From Prorocentrum cordatum (lineage: Eukaryota > Sar > Dinophyceae > Prorocentrales > Prorocentraceae): DNA of 64,000 nt. This document shows positions 3,103 to 56,329 of the stretch, one piece after another. The notes below the pieces were generated by a model, which saw only the letters and a list, made by a program, of their open reading frames with translations, had not been told where the DNA came from and did not search any database. The DNA lies in contig CAUYUJ010014593.1 of the NCBI GenBank assembly GCA_963575745.1, forward strand, positions 456,008-520,007, read 5' to 3'. Positions within the stretch are counted from its first letter, which is position 1, and the number at the start of each line of letters is the position of its first letter. The translations under genes and the position numbers were made by a program.

Positions 3103-3853
3103 TGTCGCACCCCGAGGCATGTTTTTTTTAGGGCGGGCCGGGCGTTTCGCCTGAGACTTCCTCACCATCTATAACCCTGAAGCCTAAACAGTGAGAACAG
3201 CTTCACAGATGGAGGGCGGGCCGTTTTCAAAATATGGCTCTCGACTTCGCGCCGCGCACATTCGTAGAAAGTGACAAGAGCTTCACGGATTGAGGGCGTT
3301 TCCTTTTGAAATTGCGGCTCTCGCCTTGCGCAGCGCATACTCGTTTTAAACATTGCCAGAGCCCAGCGGATTGAGGGCGGGTCGTTTTCAAAATGTGGCT
3401 TTCGCCATATCGCCGCGTACATTCGTTTTTGACAATTACAAGTCAATTACAAGTGCTTCACAGATTGAGGGCGGTTCCTTTTCAAACTGTGGTTCTCGCC
3501 TTAGCGCCGCGCGCATTCGTTTTTATAAGTTGCAGGAGTTTCATTGGGTCCCGCGATCGACGTACCATGAATGGCGTTTTCAAAGGGTTCAAGATTTTGC
3601 GTGCGCAGCAGTTATGTTGATTCGCGGTGTTGAAGTTCCCAAAATGGTTCCCACACGATTCCGGATCGTCAAGACGCAGCAGTCAGGTTGACACGCGGCA
3701 TTGAAATCCAGAGTGCGATTTTCTGGCATGTGTCAGGATTTTCAAACGCAGTTTCCCCGATGGAAATGAACCGTTGTGGGGGCCTAGGAAGAGGGAGCTT
3801 GGAAGGAGGGTTAATTCCGACATCGTTGATGACTTTTGGGTTTACACTGGTCC
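3103..3853 (-). repeat. Interspersed ~740-bp repeat, copy A
   Basis: Read on the minus strand, this begins with GGACCAGTGTAAACCC beside a GGA-rich tract. It then carries about four to five copies of an ~82-bp tandem unit and ends with GAGGAAGTCTCAGGCGAAAC and CGGGGTGCGACA, again next to a purine-rich tract. The same layout is found on the plus strand at 7796-8530 and, split, at 12155-13712. The internal unit contains GCGCGGCGCTAAGGCGAGAG, CACATTTTGAAAACGACCCG and CAATCCGTGAAGCTCTTGCA. No reading frame is conserved among copies, so this is probably a non-autonomous mobile repeat; its class is not evident. Confidence 0.75.
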
Positions 3854-7795: not shown

Positions 7796-8530
7796 GGACC
7801 AGTGTAAACCCAGGAGCCGTCAACGATGTTGGAATTAACCCTCCCTCCAAGCTCCCTCTTCATAGGCCCCTACACGGTTGATCTCAATCGAGGGAATTGC
7901 TCCGCTGGAAGAACAGTTTGAAGACCTTGACGCATTGCAAAACATTGTTCTCGGGATTTCCACGCAAGGAGACTGCTGCGTCCTGACGATATGGAGTCTT
8001 GCCAGAACGCCATTCTGGGACTTCAACACCGCGAGCAAATATTATTATTGCACCCGCTTAATCCGGAATCCCTCCAAGACGCCATTTATGGTACGTTGAT
8101 TATGAGAACCCGTGACGCCCTTGAAATGTTTTAGAACGAATGTGCGCGGCGCTGAAGCGAGAACCACAGTTTGAAAAAGAACCGCTTTCAATGCGCGAAA
8201 CGCTTGCAAGTTGTTGCAACGAATGCGCGCGGCGCTAAGGCGAGAGCCACATATTGAAAACGACCCGCTTTCAATCCGTGAAACTCTTGCAGATTTTGAA
8301 AACGAATGCACGCGGCGCTGAGGAGAGAACCACATTTTGAAAAGGAGCCGCCCTCAATCCGCGAAGGTCTTGCAATTTTCCAAACGAATGTGCGCGGCGC
8401 TAAGGCGAGAGCCACATGTTGAAAACGACCCGCCCTCGATGTGTGAAACTGTTGCCAACTTCGAAGCTTCTGAATCATGAGTGGTGAGGAAGTCTCAGGC
8501 AAAACGCCCGGCCCGCCCGGGGTGCGACAG
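7796..8530 (+). repeat. Interspersed ~740-bp repeat, copy B (most complete)
   Basis: Starts GGACCAGTGTAAACCCAGG directly after a GGA tract and ends with GAGGAAGTCTCAGGCAAAAC and CGGGGTGCGACA, followed by another purine-rich tract. The left half contains ACGATGTTGGAATTAACCC and GGCCCCTACACGG. The right half is a four-unit tandem array starting at 8139, 8222, 8305 and 8387, spacing 83, 83 and 82 bp. Copies A and C-D share the order and both termini, so the boundaries are set by comparison. No conserved ORF is visible. Confidence 0.8.
8139..8469 (+). repeat. 82/83-bp tandem unit x4 inside copy B
   Basis: Each unit runs AATG(T/C)GCGCGGCGCTAAGG, then CGAGAGCCACATTTTGAAAA, then CGACCCGC-CTCAATCCGTGA, then ARRCTCTTGCA. 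Units are about 80-85 percent alike by eye. Confidence 0.85.
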
Positions 8531-12154: not shown

Positions 12155-12822
12155 GGACCAGTGCAAACCCAAGACTCATCAACGATGTTGGCACACGCCC
12201 TTTTTCCAAGCTCTCTCTTCATGGGCCCCTACACGGGATCATCTCCACTGAGGGAACTGCTTCGTGGGGAGACAACCGTCTGACGACCTTGCAGCGTGCC
12301 AAAACCGTTCTCGGGACTCCAACGCCATGGATCAGCCTGACTGTTGCGTCCTGGCGATTCTGACCCGGTTCAGAACACAATTCTTGGGACTTCAGCATCG
12401 CGAACCAACGTAACTGTTGCGCCCTCACGTTCCAGAGTCTTTACAAAACATTATCCGGTGTACCTTGACCAGGAAATCCGCCAAGCTCTTGAAATGTTTT
12501 AAAACGAGAGTGCGCGGCACCACGGCGAGTTACATTTTGAAAACGAACCGCTCTCAATCCGTCAAGCTCTTGCAAGTGTTTCAGACGAGTGTCCGCGGCG
12601 CTAAGGCGAGAACCACATTTCGAAAACGATCCGCCCTCAATCTGTGAAGCTCTTGAAATTGTTTGAAACGAGCACGCGTTGCGCTAAGGCAAGAAACACA
12701 GTTTTAGAAAACGACCCACCCTAAAGCCGTGGCATTCTTTGAAGGTATCATAACAAATGTGCCGGGCTCTAAGACAAGAGCCACATGTAGAAAACCACCC
12801 GCCATCAATCCAGGATGTACCC
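12155..12822 (+). repeat. Interspersed ~740-bp repeat, copy C, left part
   Basis: Begins GGACCAGTGCAAACCC, continues with ACGATGTTGGCACACGCCC and GGGCCCCTACACGGGATC, and carries about four diverged ~82-bp units (GCGCGGCGCTAAGGCGAGAA and variants). It lacks the right terminus and breaks off at CCATCAATCC, where an unrelated palindromic array starts. The missing right end reappears at 13506-13712. Confidence 0.7.
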
Positions 12823-28890: not shown

Positions 28891-28904
28891 GTGTGGATAT
28901 GCGC

Positions 28905-29110
28905 GGCGCTGGCGCGAGAACCACATTTTGAAAAAAACAGGCCTCCAATCTTGAATATGTAGCAAGTTTTTTAGACGATTCCGCGCGGCGCTAAGGCGAG
29001 AGCCACATTTGAACACGTCCCGGCTTCCATCCTTGAAGCTCGTGCAAGTTTTCAAGACGATTGTGTGCAGCGCTGAGGCGAGAGCCGCATTTTGAAATCA
29101 CGCAGGCTCC
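28905..29110 (+). repeat. Three ~82-bp units related to the ~740-bp repeat
   Basis: Units carry ATGCGCGGCGCTGGCGCGAG, CGCGCGGCGCTAAGGCGAGA and TGTGCAGCGCTGAGGCGAGA, followed by the ACATTTTGAAAA-type segment. Flanking termini of the long repeat are absent; a GGA tract follows, as in complete copies. Confidence 0.65.
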
Positions 29111-29154
29111 ATGCTGGAATCTGTTCTGAATTTCAAGTTTCAGGAGCATAGTTG

Positions 29155-50252: not shown

Positions 50253-50318
50253 ATGGCCTCCGCGCGCACCCTCGCCGCCGCCGTGGCTTCCGTGGCCTTC
50301 CTGCTGGGCCCGCCTCAG
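50253..50318 (+). CDS. Exon 1: signal peptide
   Basis: 22 codons, MASARTLAAAVASVAFLLGP then PQ: a short positive N-region, a hydrophobic core and an expected cleavage site just after the junction (AQA at the start of exon 2). The ATG is the only one in frame. The exon ends CCTCAG at a phase-0 boundary. Confidence 0.7.
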
Positions 50319-53300
50319 GTTACCAGCCTGAAACATATCCCTATCACTATGCTGGGCACCTCCTCATCACGATGCCAATCTTAGGGATTCCCTTATTTCT
50401 TGGGCGAATCCCTAAGATTGTCATCGCCTTTTGGCGTGCCAATCTTAGGGATAGGGATACGTTCGAGGCTGGTAATCAGGCCCAGGCGCGGGGAGCGGGC
50501 TTCCTCCAGCAGCAGCGCGAGGGAGCTGGCGGGGTCTGGAGCGACGTCCGGGGCGCCATCGACGCCGCGCTCTCGAGGAGCAACGCGTGGCACAAGCATC
50601 GATCTTCGGAGGCCTGGCATCGCTCGGACGTGCGCATTTTTTCTCGGCGAGGACCATCGAGGACCATCCTGGACCATCGAACAAAAAACACACGCACGAT
50701 ACCGAAAAATGAACGGGAAATGGACGTCCGAGCGACGGCAAGGAGGTCCGCGCGGATGTCTTGGATCGGCGTTGGGCCCCCCCCGGCGGCGCCTCCGGCG
50801 CCGCCCCTGGCTCGGGGAAGCGTGAGACTCGAGTGAGCCAGAATCTCCGGTTTGCCATCGTTTTTGGACGAGCGCGTTCCGGATCTTGACGGTCCAGTTT
50901 CTTCGGGAGATCTGCAGCGGGAGCTCGCGTCAAATTTCAGATTAAATCTCGTCATTTTCAGGATGGCCCCGTCAGGCCAACCCGAGTGCCCCGTGCCCGA
51001 GTCTTACGTCTCCCTGGCTGGTCCAGATCCAGCGCGGACTTCGAAAATGTATGTTTATGCCATTGTTTTGTTCCCCGACCCTCGCCCTGGGTCTCGCCGA
51101 GGGCGCACGCCTGGCGGAGTTGGAGGGCGCCCTGGCCGCGACGTGGCGGTCGCTGCCGAAGAACGGCGCGGGGCTCCTCGAGGCGCAGACGCTGCGCCTC
51201 GTGGTGCGGCGGCACTTCTCGAGGGCGTCAGCCCTGGTGGTCTCGGGGGCGGAAAAGAGGGGGTTGATGACTAGGGAGGGGTGGATATCATGGCGGGGGC
51301 CATGATATCTCCCCAGATTTCATGGCGCCTCTTCTTGTTTCATTACGTCCCTGGCCCCCCCGCTGGGCCGCGCACATGCCGCCGGTCATGATTTGCACCC
51401 CCCCCTCTTGGACACCCCCCTGTTGGCCGCTCCCGATGGTCGTGGAGCACAATTTTTGCGTCGGCGGCTCGGCCTATGGAGGACGATCAATGGAGAGGAA
51501 GCGTGCTGTCAGATCATTTCCAGATGTCCAAAAGATGTGTCAAAGCTATTTCAAATATGTAAAGCACATGTTTGAAACATGTTTAGAACATGTCTTACAC
51601 ATTTTAAACACATCTTTAATTCAATAACAGGACTGTTAGGGTGTTCATTGTCGTGGCACCCGCAAGGGTAGGCAGGGGGCGTCTGCGCCGGCGAATGGAT
51701 CCGGCCCAGGCGAAGGGATGCCATGAGGGCGACCCGTGCCACCGTGCAGGAGGAGGAGGAGCGGGAGGAAGGAGCGAGCCGCTCAGGGGGGACGGGTCCC
51801 TTTCCCGTATGGAGAAAGCTCGAGCGAGCGTCCGAGCGAAGACGTCTCGAGCAGAGCGGAGCGAGCCGCTCAGGGGGAGACGTGGATATCGCTCGAGCCT
51901 GCTCAATACGTGGGCGCGGCCAAACGGGGGGGGGGGCGGCAGGAGCGAGCCGCTCGGGGGGGACGGGCCCCTCCCCGAGCGGGCGGCGCGGCCGGCCGTC
52001 TCCGGCGGGCCCACCTGGCCGGGGAGCACGGGCAGTCCACGGCACGCCGCCGTGGGGCGCCCCCGGCCGCGCGTGCCCCGCTGGAGAGGCACCAGGCCTC
52101 CCGGTCAAGAGCGAGGGAGGAACCCAGAGGCTCACCCGATGCAAGCAAATACATAAATGTTTAATGTCTGAGTTTATGTGTGTATATATATATATGTGTG
52201 TGTGTATGTAGTCGCCAGTGGATTTACTTGCTGAGTTCACATAGAAGCTTAACATCAGCATGTAAACGACGTAACATATCTTAAGTTTTGCACATGCAGG
52301 TTCAATGATTCATCAAACTTGTAATCTGCAGTAGTTGCATCTGCATATGTGAATATCCATCTGTTGCGTGTAAATGTGCGTGCAGCGCGTGCCATATATG
52401 ATAACATCCGAACGAGGGTGAGGGGCCGAACGGTCTTACATTGTCCCTCGCCCTCCCTCCCCGTCGCTCTTATCCGCAACCGCGGGGGCATGTGTGAGTT
52501 CCCTCGCTAGTGATTCCCTCGCGTCAGCCATTATCAGCTGGCGACAAGAGAAACATTATGCCCGTGACGTCTACAACGCAGGAAATGGACGTCCGAGCGA
52601 TGGCCAGCTGCCGTTCTCCCTACCTCTTCCTCCTGCCCCGTTCTCCCTCCATCTTTTTATATTTTGCAAGCCCCTCCACCGCCAAGCCCGTCCCAAACGT
52701 GAGCTGCGCTGGCTGCTTAGACTGCGCTCTGCTTGTATTGCTACACCTAGGCTGCGCGCCTTCTCACCTGGCGCCGCGGCTCCCCCGCCTCAGCGATGGG
52801 CGGAACCTCAGGCAAGAAAGGCTTCACGGCGGGCTTCAACGCGTTCCACTCGATTTGAAGCTCTCCCAAACGATGGACACAGTCAGAAACGATGCTGATC
52901 GATGGCTCCACCTGCGTGGACGAGTCGAGGCAAGCGAGTCGAAGCTGGAAATCCTCAAGGTTCGCCAACAACGTTTCTGAGAAACGGTGTGTTGGGATAC
53001 TTGCCACCCACGATGACGTGATTGTCTGCATGCTGTTGATGGTGTCTTTCATGTTGTTCCACTCCTCGACGAGGTGATCTGGCACGGTCGTCGGCGATTC
53101 GATCACTTCAATCGTCTCTGCATCCGACTCCGACATGTGAGCATCGCCTGCTCCTTCTCCCACGACTGGGTCACGTTATTCCCCACGAGGAATCAGCACA
53201 GCATCGCTCGAGAGACTGTGCGCGCCCCTGAAAGGCTCTCCAAGTGTCCGAGTCGCCCGAAGCAGAAGCAGGCATGTGTCGCACTCTGCTCCAAACTTGC

Positions 53301-55435
53301 TATCCTAGCCTGGGGCCGAAACGCCTGAGGGATCATGCCAAGAGGCAACGTGTCGATGGTGAGTTTGCCGAACCTCGCGGGTTTTGGGGGCGCAAGTTCG
53401 CCGACCCTCGTGAGGCCAGCTGGCACGGGAGCAACGTTGGCTGTAAAACAGTGTGCCAGAAGCATATTGTTACCATGGCCGAGGGTGCCACTTTCATACG
53501 TAAGCCCCCGAAATTGCAGGTGAAATATCAATACAACACACCACCCTCGAAACCATTTTTCCGCTAGGCACCCCGAGACCATGTAGGACCGTTTGCCCCT
53601 TTCATTCTGTTTTGTACACATACTAATGTTCCCTTAAGTGGGCCACGAATGACATGCGAATCGGTGTAATCTCTTAGCGAATGTGTAATGTCTGTTTTTA
53701 CATGTGGATATCTGTTGATTGCGTGCCCCGTCTTGAATTGTTGAGTGGACTATTTTTTGACATGGATGACTGTCTGGGAGCACGCCGACGAGCACCCGGC
53801 GGCGGCGTGCCAATGATTCATCAAGGGAAAAACACACAGGCACAATTCATCGTCGATCCCAAGGAAAATATGGAAACTATGGGAAGTGGGGGGACAGACA
53901 AAAACCCAGAACATATTGACAAACATGGGGAATCCTGTTATGTGTGTGTGTGTATTTATTTGTGTGTCCCAGGGCCCCTTCGGTGATGCCTTTTTTGTTT
54001 CCTCTCTTCCGAGGTGGTTCGCGGCTTCGAGCCCAGCCAGCAGTATTGGCCGCAAGCCGCCGGCCGTGCGGGCGGCGCTGGGGCCTTCGGCGACGGAGCG
54101 CTGGAGCAGCTCGGGGGGGCGCTGGCGTCTGGGCAGGCCGCGTCCCCGCGGGGCTTCTCCGCGCGGGACGCGGCGCTCGTGGTGCTGCTGGTGGAGCGGC
54201 TGGTCTCTTAGCTGCCCTGATACGCACGTGCTGGAACGCAGCACGCACCGTGCTCAACACGGCTCACGCTCGTGCTGGCTCATGTTTTGACGAACGTATC
54301 GCGTCAGACCTACGTGCTGAATCTGCGTACGCGTTGAGCTCCGTGGCAAGTTGCACTACGGGTTGCAAGTCGCGTATCGGGGCAGATAAGGCTCGTCTCC
54401 GACCAGGAGGAGGCCCTCCTGGAGGAGGCGTACGAGAACTGCTCGCTCTCCCCGCACGGCCGGATCGGCCGCGCGCAGCTGCAGACGGCGCTGGAGCACT
54501 ACCTGGTGCAGTGGATGATGGGCAGCGACCGGGAGACCGCTAACGCGCTGCTCGCGAACAGGTCCATCCTCGAGAGCGGCTTCCCGCACTGGGCCGCGCT
54601 CGCGGACCTCCTGCGGGGCTCTGTGAGGGCGCTGGACTTCAGGCGCCAGCGGGCGATGCAGCCTGGCGCCCTTCGCGCGGAGTACAGCTTCCAGGAGGCC
54701 CGGGCCATCGTGGCCGGGATCACCAGGTCCTTCGCGAGTTTCTGGGACGACGAGTGCAGGGTCATGAAGGAGGGCTTGGTCAAGATGGACACCTACCGCA
54801 CCGGGCGCGTGCCCCTCTCCAAGTTCTACGGCGCGGGGCTCGACACAGAGTGGCGCTACGGGGAGTCGGAGGCATACCTGCGGGGACTTGGCGTGCTGGA
54901 CGAGAGCTCGCGGTGGCTCGGCAAGCAGGTCATCATCACCAACTACATGCACGGGGAGTCCAACTGCATCGTGTCGGGGTCGCACTACAAGGTCTGCTGC
55001 ATGGACGACTGCGAGGGCCTGCTTGGCGAGATTGAGGCCGCCGCTGGCTCGCCAGCGCTGGACCCCCTCGAGCTGCTGGAGCTGGTCGAGAACGTGGCTG
55101 CGCCCACGCTGGCGGCGGACGACGGCACGCCCGCCCTCCCGCGGGCCCTTGCGGCGCAGCTGCGCAGCATCGCTGCCGCCCACGGTGGCGTCGTGCCGCT
55201 GCACGGCCGCCTGTTCGCGCGGTGGCTGCACCTCGCGTTCCCGCACCACTGCCCCCTCCCGCCGCCTGCGGCCTCACACGCGGCGCGCCCCGTGGCCAGC
55301 TTCTCGGACGAGCAGATGGCCACGCGCGAGGAGATGCTCCAGCACGCCGGCGCGGCTGCCGCGGCCGCGGACGAGGCCGAGAATGCGACGGCGGCTGCCG
55401 CCGGGAGCGAGCTGCACCTGATGTCGCACTGGAGC
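50253..55435 (+). CDS. Multi-exon gene for a secreted/organellar protein of unknown function (dinoflagellate family)
   Basis: Five exons are proposed: 50253-50318, 50480-50584 (end tentative), 51102-51236, 54014-54198 and 54391-55435, phases 0, 0, 0 and 2, giving at least 512 residues. Introns are 161 nt (GT-AG), about 517 nt, 2777 nt (GT-AG) and 192 nt (GC-AG). The protein starts with a signal peptide. It has three EF-hand-like helix-loop-helix stretches with incomplete calcium ligands (LPKNGAGLLEAQTLRLVVRR, SLSPHGRIGRAQLQTALEHY, DTYRTGRVPLSKF) and a conserved core with WLGKQVIITNYMHGESNCIV and CCMDDCEG. I recall the same architecture from predicted proteins of several dinoflagellates, with no known function. 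The 3' end is unresolved: after MSHWS at 55435 the frame runs into a TCC microsatellite, and a GT at 55436 may start another intron. Confidence 0.7.
50319..50479 (+). mobile_element. Intron 1 is an introner element (GT-AG)
   Basis: A 156-bp element (50320-50475) has terminal inverted repeats TTACCAGCCTGAAACATATC... and, from the right, TTACCAGCCTCGAACGTATC..., 22 of 25 positions identical. It is flanked by the direct repeat TCAGG (50315-50319 and 50476-50480). The donor GT is formed by the last G of the duplication plus the first T of the element, and the acceptor AG lies in the second duplication copy. Splicing therefore restores exactly one TCAGG and keeps phase 0. Inside, a 20-nt arm (50371-50390) pairs at 19 positions with 50406-50425, so the whole element can fold back. 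This is the structure expected for an intron born by DNA-transposon insertion. Confidence 0.85.
50480..50584 (+). CDS. Exon 2: N-terminal mature region
   Basis: Encodes AQARGAGFLQQQREGAGGVW then SDVRGAIDAALSRSN. The start is fixed by the introner's acceptor. The end is tentative: GCGTGG at 50585 gives a GC donor in phase 0, matching the GC donor of intron 4, but other donors between 50564 and 50590 are possible. Confidence 0.5.
50585..51101 (+). other. Intron 2
   Basis: Ends with TTGTTTTGTTCCCCGACCCT ... CTCGCCGAG, a good pyrimidine tract and AG. Near the left end GTGGCACAAGCATCGATCTTCG resembles the reverse complement of CGAAAATGTATGTTTATGCC at about 51042-51064 (about 17 of 23 matches), hinting at another decayed inverted-repeat element. 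Confidence 0.45.
51102..51236 (+). CDS. Exon 3: first EF-hand-like segment
   Basis: Encodes GARLAELEGALAATWRSLPK, then NGAGLLEAQTLRLVVRRHFS and RASAL. A helix, a short loop and a second helix resemble a calcium-free EF-hand. The exon ends before GTGGTCTCG, so the donor is GT, and the junction to exon 4 reads SAL-VVRGFEP. Confidence 0.6.
52747..53136 (-). CDS. Possible small gene on the opposite strand within intron 3
   Basis: From an ATG at 53136 the minus strand encodes about 129 residues: MSESDAETIEVIESPTTVPD, then HLVEEWNNMKDTINSMQTIT, RFSETLLANLEDFQLRLACL, and a basic end QVRRRAA. Composition is balanced, acidic and helix-rich, which is unusual among frames in this window. I recognise no family. 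It could be a separate gene, an exon of a minus-strand gene, or part of an old element. Upstream minus-strand sequence (53190-53620) is also open but less convincing. Confidence 0.3.
   Translation of the reverse strand: MSESDAETIEVIESPTTVPDHLVEEWNNMKDTINSMQTITSSWVASIPTHRFSETLLANLEDFQLRLACLDSSTQVEPSISIVSDCVHRLGELQIEWNALKPAVKPFLPEVPPIAEAGEPRRQVRRRAA
53824..53980. repeat. AT-rich dispersed repeat, copy 2
   Basis: Sister of 10493-10647 in the same orientation, about 65-70 percent similar by eye. It ends in TGTGTGTGTGTATTTATTTG and TGTCCCAGGGCCC, about 35 nt before the acceptor of intron 3. Confidence 0.7.
54014..54198 (+). CDS. Exon 4
   Basis: Encodes VVRGFEPSQQYWPQAAGRAG, a Gly/Ala-rich linker, then FSARDAALVVLLVERL. 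It ends at phase 2 (GAG CG), with the last codon completed by the first G of exon 5. A TAG just inside the following intron (54208-54210) would truncate the protein if the introner were not spliced. Confidence 0.65.
54199..54390 (+). mobile_element. Intron 4 is a second introner element (GC-AG)
   Basis: A 184-bp element (54207-54390) begins CTTAGCTGCCCTGATACGC, and the reverse complement of its right end is CTTATCTGCCCCGATACGC: 17 of 19 identical. It is flanked by an 8-bp near-perfect duplication, GCTGGTCT (54199-54206) and GCTCGTCT (54391-54398). The donor dinucleotide GC is the start of the left duplication and the acceptor AG is the end of the element. Removing 54199-54390 therefore restores one duplication copy and an uninterrupted frame (ERL-VSDQEE). 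Termini, duplication length and donor differ from the introner in intron 1. Confidence 0.85.
54391..55435 (+). CDS. Exon 5: conserved core
   Basis: About 348 codons starting LVSDQEEALLEEAYENCSLS. Segments in order: a second EF-hand-like stretch (HGRIGRAQLQTALEHYLVQW), SILESGFPHWAALADLL, FQEARAIVAGITRSFASFWD, the third EF-hand-like loop DTYRTGRVPLSKF (54788-54826), the most characteristic block SEAYLRGLGVLDESSRWLGK then QVIITNYMHGESNCIVSGSH, then CCMDDCEGLLGEIEAA, HGRLFARWLHLAFPHHCPLP and an Ala-rich helix before MSHWS. Conservation of these blocks across dinoflagellates is from memory. The cysteines in CCMDDC could bind metal or form disulfides in a secreted protein. Confidence 0.75.
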
Positions 55436-56329
55436 GTGCAGGATCGGAGGAGGGGGGGCCACCGCTGCACACCGCCTTCACCGCCTGGAAGGGGGGCGGG
55501 GGCTTCAGAGGTGGGCTCGGGGGCGCTGGTGGCGCTTGCTCGCCGGGGCGCCCTCGCGGGGAATCCTGCGGGCCTGCACCCCTCCTGCCCCTCCTCCTCC
55601 TCCTCCTCCTCCTCCTCCTCCTCCTCCTCCTCCTCCTCCTCCTCCTCCACGAAGCCGCAGTTCCTGCACTACGCAGGCGGTGGCAGTGGTCAGCCCCCAT
55701 CGCTCCAGAGGGCGCCAACCGAACACTGCTGCGCCTGCGCCGCTCCTGGCCGCCAGCCCTGGGCCCCAGGATCGCGGAGCGCGCGCCTCCCTGGCCAGGC
55801 CAGAGGGCCCACACACGGGCAGCCTGGTCATGGGCCCCTGGTCTGGGCCCCGGCCCTTGTCGTCAGGGCTCTGATGGGGGTCGCCCAATCCCCTCTGTCA
55901 ACGAGGGCAAATCCACCCCGACCCCCATAATCGGCGTTTGCTGAATGGTCCCGTGCGTTTACTAAACAGCGCGTTCTTGTTCGATTTCTTCGCCGGGGGC
56001 GTTTACTAAACGGTTGCGTTGTCGGGGTACTTATTATCGGAGTGGATCTCCAGCCCTCCCCTCTGGCTGACTCGAGAGGTTGGGGGCCACGTGGGCCCGA
56101 TTCCCCCTTTGCCACCCTCCGCTGACCCAGGTTCAGGAGCCACTGAGCGCCCGGCCAGGCTCCGCGACAGGCCCTGGCCAACCCGGACGTGTGCTGGCCC
56201 TTGTCAGCGGTACATGGATGAAGGGGGTTCTCCCAAGATGAACGACGCAGAATTAGCCTGGCGAAGAACCAAACCCTTGGTGAACGAGTGGCGGCGATAA
56301 AGAGGACTGCTCCACGCCGTACGGACATG
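55436..56329. other. 3' region of the host gene; (TCC)n at 55590-55648
   Basis: The exon 5 frame stays open to 55930 but becomes low-complexity, with poly-Ser over a TCC microsatellite, so it is more likely intron or 3' UTR. No polyadenylation signal can be assigned. Further terminal exons may exist but are not identifiable. Confidence 0.4.

Follow-up and report, generated by a model that had tools for sequence, protein, structure and literature searches.

We find that the first intron of a protein-coding gene of Prorocentrum cordatum consists of a short, hairpin-shaped, MITE-like element, denoted IE1, together with one copy of the pentamer TCAGG that stands on either side of it. We consider it highly probable (about 90%) that IE1 is an introner: a cut-and-paste DNA transposon of the non-autonomous type, whose insertion into a TCAGG of the coding sequence duplicated that pentamer. 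The window, meaning the whole 64-kb stretch of DNA that was analysed, has a G+C content of 62%; the genome value given for P. cordatum is 59.7% (PMC10666404). The element and its borders are laid out as follows.

50315 to 50319, + strand: left TCAGG target duplication, the final G of which is base 1 of the intron
50320 to 50475, + strand: IE1, a 156-bp MITE-like introner, from its terminal inverted repeats (TIRs), fold, randomised scan and copies
50320 to 50344, + strand: left TIR of IE1, 22/25, from comparison of the ends
50451 to 50475, - strand: right TIR of IE1, from comparison of the ends
50370 to 50426, + strand: inner hairpin of IE1, arms 50370-50390 and 50406-50426, 20/21, from pairing and fold
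50476 to 50480, + strand: right TCAGG copy, whose CAG closes intron 1 and whose final G opens exon 2

The termini of IE1 read TTACCAGCCT on the left and AGGCTGGTAA on the right, with TCAGG outside both. On re-measurement, 22 of the 25 terminal bases match as an inverted repeat, the outermost 10 exactly, and the match is 83% over 40-nt arms. The initial annotation, made from the letters of the DNA, had described 25-bp TIRs with 22 identical bases, a 5-bp TCAGG duplication and an element of 156 bp, and all three readings hold at these coordinates. It had also described an inner hairpin, which is present, with 20 of 21 bases paired in 21-nt arms (95% complementary) instead of the 19 of 20 given there. 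The predicted RNA fold of IE1 has an energy of -84.8 kcal/mol versus -40.3 (s.d. 4.5) for shuffled sequences, approximately 10 standard deviations under the mean of 200 shuffles, none of which (0/200) folds as well. The G+C content of IE1 is 48% compared with 76% in exon 2, and its longest open frame spans 51 codons. No transposase was found among the 10 open reading frames of the window scanned against Pfam, and the window contains no Rfam match at gathering scores. IE1 has the following properties of a MITE: it is short, lacks a transposase, carries TIRs and a target duplication, and is multi-copy.

The gene that surrounds IE1 was reconstructed by joining five candidate exons by hand, and the resulting protein was used as the query of a protein search. 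This search returned 243 relatives at E <= 0.001 (7997 candidates scored), and its best match is P0001, an 'unnamed protein product [Prorocentrum cordatum]' encoded on a 1.14-Mb contig. The following structure results.

50253 to 50318, + strand: exon 1, coding part from the ATG, 22 codons (P0001, homologue alignment)
50319 to 50479, + strand: intron 1, GT-AG, 161 nt, equal to IE1 plus one duplication copy (P0001)
50480 to 50611, + strand: exon 2 according to P0001, with an alternative end at 50584 via a GC donor at 50585 (P0001, homologues)
51102 to 51236, + strand: exon 3 (P0001)
54014 to 54198, + strand: exon 4 (P0001)
54199 to 54390, + strand: intron 4, GC-AG, 192 nt, equal to a second element, IE4, plus its flank repeat (P0001, homologue alignment)
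54208 to 54389, + strand: IE4, candidate second introner, 182 bp, ends matching 16/18, flanks 54198-54207 and 54390-54399 matching 9/10
54391 to 55438, + strand: exon 5, to the limit of agreement between P0001 and the window (P0001)

P0001 is identical, residue for residue, to the hand-joined protein across junctions 1, 3 and 4, and its tail diverges past ...MSHWSV. Junction 1 reads LLGPPQ/AQARG, with 50319-50479 exactly left out. As modelled in this deposited protein, IE1 serves as the first intron of a genuine gene, spliced at 50318/50480, precisely where the initial annotation had set the GT-AG sites such that excision leaves one TCAGG; gene models of P. cordatum combine transcript and ab initio models (PMC10666404). 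Among the matches listed, none of the 119 other homologues has inserted residues at any of the four junctions. The surroundings of junction 1 are poorly conserved, with an adjoining gap in 12 of the 119 listed homologues, and 106 of the 119 extend at least 5 residues upstream of the junction. At junction 2, P0001 has 9 additional residues relative to the hand-joined protein (AWHKHRSSE, 50585-50611, the end of exon 2), where 117 of the 119 other homologues among the matches listed show a gap; use of the GC donor at 50585 would take these residues out. The candidate signal peptide of the host protein is a by-eye reading. No Pfam domain scores above the cut-off in the host protein (single match, E 0.25), and the UniRef label of P0001, 'Selenoprotein O', finds no support in the host-protein search or in Pfam. 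Those relatives with a readable organism name, among the matches listed, are dinoflagellates.

A scan of the 64-kb window for TIRs (lengths 50-400, 18-bp termini, flank repeat of 5/5 or at least 9/10) yields three places with at least 14 of 18 terminal bases matching. Two of these reach at least 15 of 18, namely IE1 (15) and IE4 (16). Of 30 randomised windows, produced by first-order resampling per 1-kb block, 10 reach 14 and none reaches 15 or more; both places that exceed the controls are introns of one and the same gene. An earlier scan for 12-bp ends, with a single mismatch allowed, returned nothing from the window; when six end bases had to match exactly, 8 places were obtained, with IE1 the best (17/20) and IE4 missed, compared with 1 to 6 places in each of 10 randomised windows. 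By blastn, neither IE1 nor IE4 recurs in the window, all other matches being at most 16 bases long.

From its anatomy, IE4 looks like a second, different introner. Its ends, TTAGCTGCC and TTATCTGCC, resemble those of IE1 (TTACCAGCC), and its flank repeats, GGCTGGTCTC and GGCTCGTCTC, comprise 10 bp with one mismatch compared with 5 bp for IE1. The GC donor of intron 4 would lie inside the flank repeat, and the acceptor would be composed of the last A of the element and the first G of the flank. A search with translated IE4 found no copy at E <= 10 among 2055 candidates, so it is the anatomy that argues for mobility of IE4. Given this result and the difference in flank-repeat length, we do not claim IE1 and IE4 as one family.

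Other repeats were noted in the same gene. Intron 3 (51237-54013) shows, by eye, a GTGGT direct repeat at both borders and 5-bp ends CTCGG/CCGAG; it could be the strongly degraded remains of an introner, but the signal is too faint for a call. Intron 2 holds an inner inverted repeat (50615-50631/50724-50740), and by eye its ends do not match. A 27-bp repeat, 93% identical, is shared between intron 2 (50716-50742) and intron 3 (52581-52607), with inverted matches at 50614-50631/52589-52607 and 50731-50755/26322-26346, and is perhaps another dispersed short element. Elsewhere in the window, short tandem arrays with a period of 80-83 bp occur on both strands (3190-3426, 8120-8455, 12475-12730 and 28901-29119), and their units look related by eye.

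Copies of IE1 were sought by comparing its translated open frames with proteins that might have swallowed a copy. This approach detects just unspliced copies lying inside gene models, and the sample is biased accordingly, as spliced copies vanish from protein databases. Five proteins match at E <= 10 (423 candidates). In the list below, the first fraction counts bases compatible with IE1 on back-translation and the second counts only sites where the codon leaves no more than two bases open; because degenerate codon positions are scored as compatible, the figures are upper bounds.

P0121, JGI environmental contig, opposite orientation: E 2.3e-12; 122/126; 91/95
P0122, P. cordatum, end to end: E 8.5e-9; 148/154; 107/113
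P0123, P. cordatum, end to end: E 5.9e-7; 146/154; 105/113
P0124, JGI environmental contig, opposite orientation: E 0.13; 77/88; 56/66
P0125, P. cordatum: E 0.31; 99/103; 69/73

The matches to P0124 and P0125 are, taken alone, not significant. P0124 leaves the resemblance to IE1 part-way and by hand looks like the same gene as P0121, so that the two may represent one insertion. P0122, which contains a CFAP69 repeat (Pfam), and P0123 both imply 158-bp copies of the element. Of the duplication lengths from 3 to 10 bp, the flanks in P0122 fit 5 bp alone. Those in P0123 fit 4 or 8 bp, not 5, and read CNCA, without AG. Around RTH[YQPG...RLV]THAV of P0123 a copy of the element is translated with no stop in its way and would keep the frame if unspliced; 158 bp of element and 4 bp of duplication together preserve the reading frame. 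P0123 has no Pfam match, and against the PDB gives a single weak match to a cytidine deaminase (E 0.34). P0125 carries a PhyH domain (Pfam) and its gene model begins within the element; it is probably a third P. cordatum gene model with the element. Similar sequence therefore stands at several unrelated gene positions of P. cordatum (P0122, P0123 and, more weakly, P0125), and its occurrence in other genes and in both orientations points to a multi-copy DNA element without a transposase of its own. A lack of further copies, which the initial annotation had named as grounds for abandoning its transposon-like introner reading, is excluded, within what gene models can reveal, by the P. cordatum and environmental DNA copies; that reading is supported by these copies, by the gene model and by the uninterrupted junctions of the 119 listed homologues. 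A TIR pattern scan of genome contigs gave 0 matches. Seven viral-contig matches to a shorter TIR pattern were dismissed as chance; in each of them the best-matching inverted partner up to 1 kb away had 3/10 mismatches.

The TIRs and target duplication of IE1 overlap the splice borders of intron 1, and this arrangement suggests how insertion at TCAGG would have created an intron at once. The donor, CAG/GT, would arise where the left TCAGG, ending in G, meets the element, which begins with T (TTACC...); the acceptor, CAG/G, would come from the right TCAGG. The target would thereby give the donor G and the entire acceptor, with IE1 giving only the T of the GT, and excision of the element with one TCAGG copy would bring back the original codons. 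IE1 was presumably mobilised by a transposase encoded elsewhere, its insertion would be recent in the Prorocentrum lineage, and its removal would fall to the ordinary spliceosome. Because the element supplies only the T, we infer that a copy should be spliceable, in either orientation, only where the duplication contains AG followed by G; the CNCA flanks of P0123, devoid of AG, fit this target-sequence rule. Such a rule can be extended to a single symmetric MITE family whose short duplication decides between a clean intron and retained codons, with the terminal stem, not a pyrimidine tract, aiding excision. A CAGG-bearing duplication would then give a clean intron in either orientation, as the element adds just the T, and non-CAGG copies would stay in the mRNA, contributing about 54 in-frame codons. 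We hold this extension to be rather doubtful.

Several other accounts of intron 1 were weighed against the introner reading. That the inverted and direct repeats reflect chance or selected RNA structure in an ordinary intron, with no transposon involved, draws on the observation that intron structure can aid splicing (PMC4770533); this account is largely refuted by the occurrence of the same sequence in other genes and is hardly credible given that 0 of 30 randomised windows match the ends plus flank repeat. Transposons are frequent in introns as a matter of general knowledge, and a MITE might have landed in an older intron; yet intron 1 comprises IE1 and one TCAGG copy, nothing more, and the splice borders lie inside both duplication copies, which leaves this account highly improbable. 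Alternatively, the transposon could be real but unspliced, disrupting the gene, with the intron an artefact of gene prediction. Gene models containing the other copies found read through the element, and the pyrimidine fraction in the last 20 nt before the acceptor is just 0.50. Nevertheless, we regard this as very unlikely, as P0001 splices precisely at the duplication borders, retention of intron 1 would introduce a stop after 21 codons, and the remaining gene is intact, with its 243 relatives.

Less improbable, though still unlikely, is that IE1 arose as we propose and is excised mainly by way of its terminal hairpin, as has been put forward for the nonconventional introns of euglenids. A long predicted stem joins the donor of intron 1 to the acceptor side, and the pyrimidine fraction of the last 20 nt is 0.50 in intron 1 and 0.40 in intron 4 versus 0.70 in intron 2 and 0.90 in intron 3; the mean before the 1717 AGG sites of the window is 0.36, and introns 1 and 4 are close to it. 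By contrast, the borders are GT-AG and GC-AG, and the CAG/CTG pairing of euglenids is absent from its place. In predicted folds, moreover, the donor of the ordinary intron 2 is mostly paired too and that of intron 4 just partly, and a comparison of four introns is too small for a conclusion.

Introners of Micromonas and Aureococcus, which belong to lineages other than that of the IE1 host, reportedly derive from DNA transposons and have splice borders linked to the target duplication (as Huff et al. 2016 are said to have described). Introners reported from P. cordatum itself carry, close to each intron end, inverted repeats (8-20 nt) and direct repeats (3-5 nt), and were viewed as pointing to non-autonomous DNA transposons (PMC10666404). 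In agreement with that definition, IE1 has such repeats no more than 30 bases from the ends of its intron; IE4, whose longest exact end match is 7, is missed by an exact pattern of 8. The published set comes from the same species and is described through a pattern definition, in which no family with TTACCAGCCT ends is named (PMC10666404). The IE1 family may already be listed in the supplements of that paper. Among the matches listed for the 10-mer TTACCAGCCT in literature text, no title is introner-related. As P. cordatum was already known to have introners, IE1 constitutes an added, well-supported case of a known kind.

Introners are also described in Suessiales (PMC10522408; review PMC11453091) and in many other eukaryotes, including families in which the insertion site provides the donor as well as the acceptor (PMC9860276). 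Those of Symbiodinium microadriaticum share target duplications and TIRs with IE1, but have a 4-bp duplication and a 3' splice site on the element, whereas IE1 has 5 bp and gives only the T of the donor (PMC9860276). In Florenciella sp. introners, donor and acceptor alike stem from the sequence at the insertion site, and IE1 is similar, fully for the acceptor and by half for the donor; according to a legend in the same source, Aureococcus sp. introners have an 8-bp duplication and carry both splice sites (PMC9860276). Introner elements of Amoebophrya share with IE1 a predicted stem-loop, inverted repeats and direct repeats that span the exon/intron border, although their borders are often non-canonical and those of IE1 are GT-AG (PMC7789003). 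In euglenid nonconventional introns a stable RNA stem joins the intron ends, as in IE1; however, their non-canonical borders and conserved pairing of +4 to +6 with -8 to -6, mostly CAG/CTG, are both absent from IE1 (PMC4770533), in which +4 to +6 is ACC and pairs with -7 to -9 in the fold.

The origin of new introns is a long-standing question, and here a single gene presents two transposon-looking introns of different families beside two introns without such a look. The sister copies of IE1 in the same species, some of them read through in gene models, provide a small natural test set that bears on what makes copies spliceable, be it target sequence, orientation, hairpin or pyrimidine tract.
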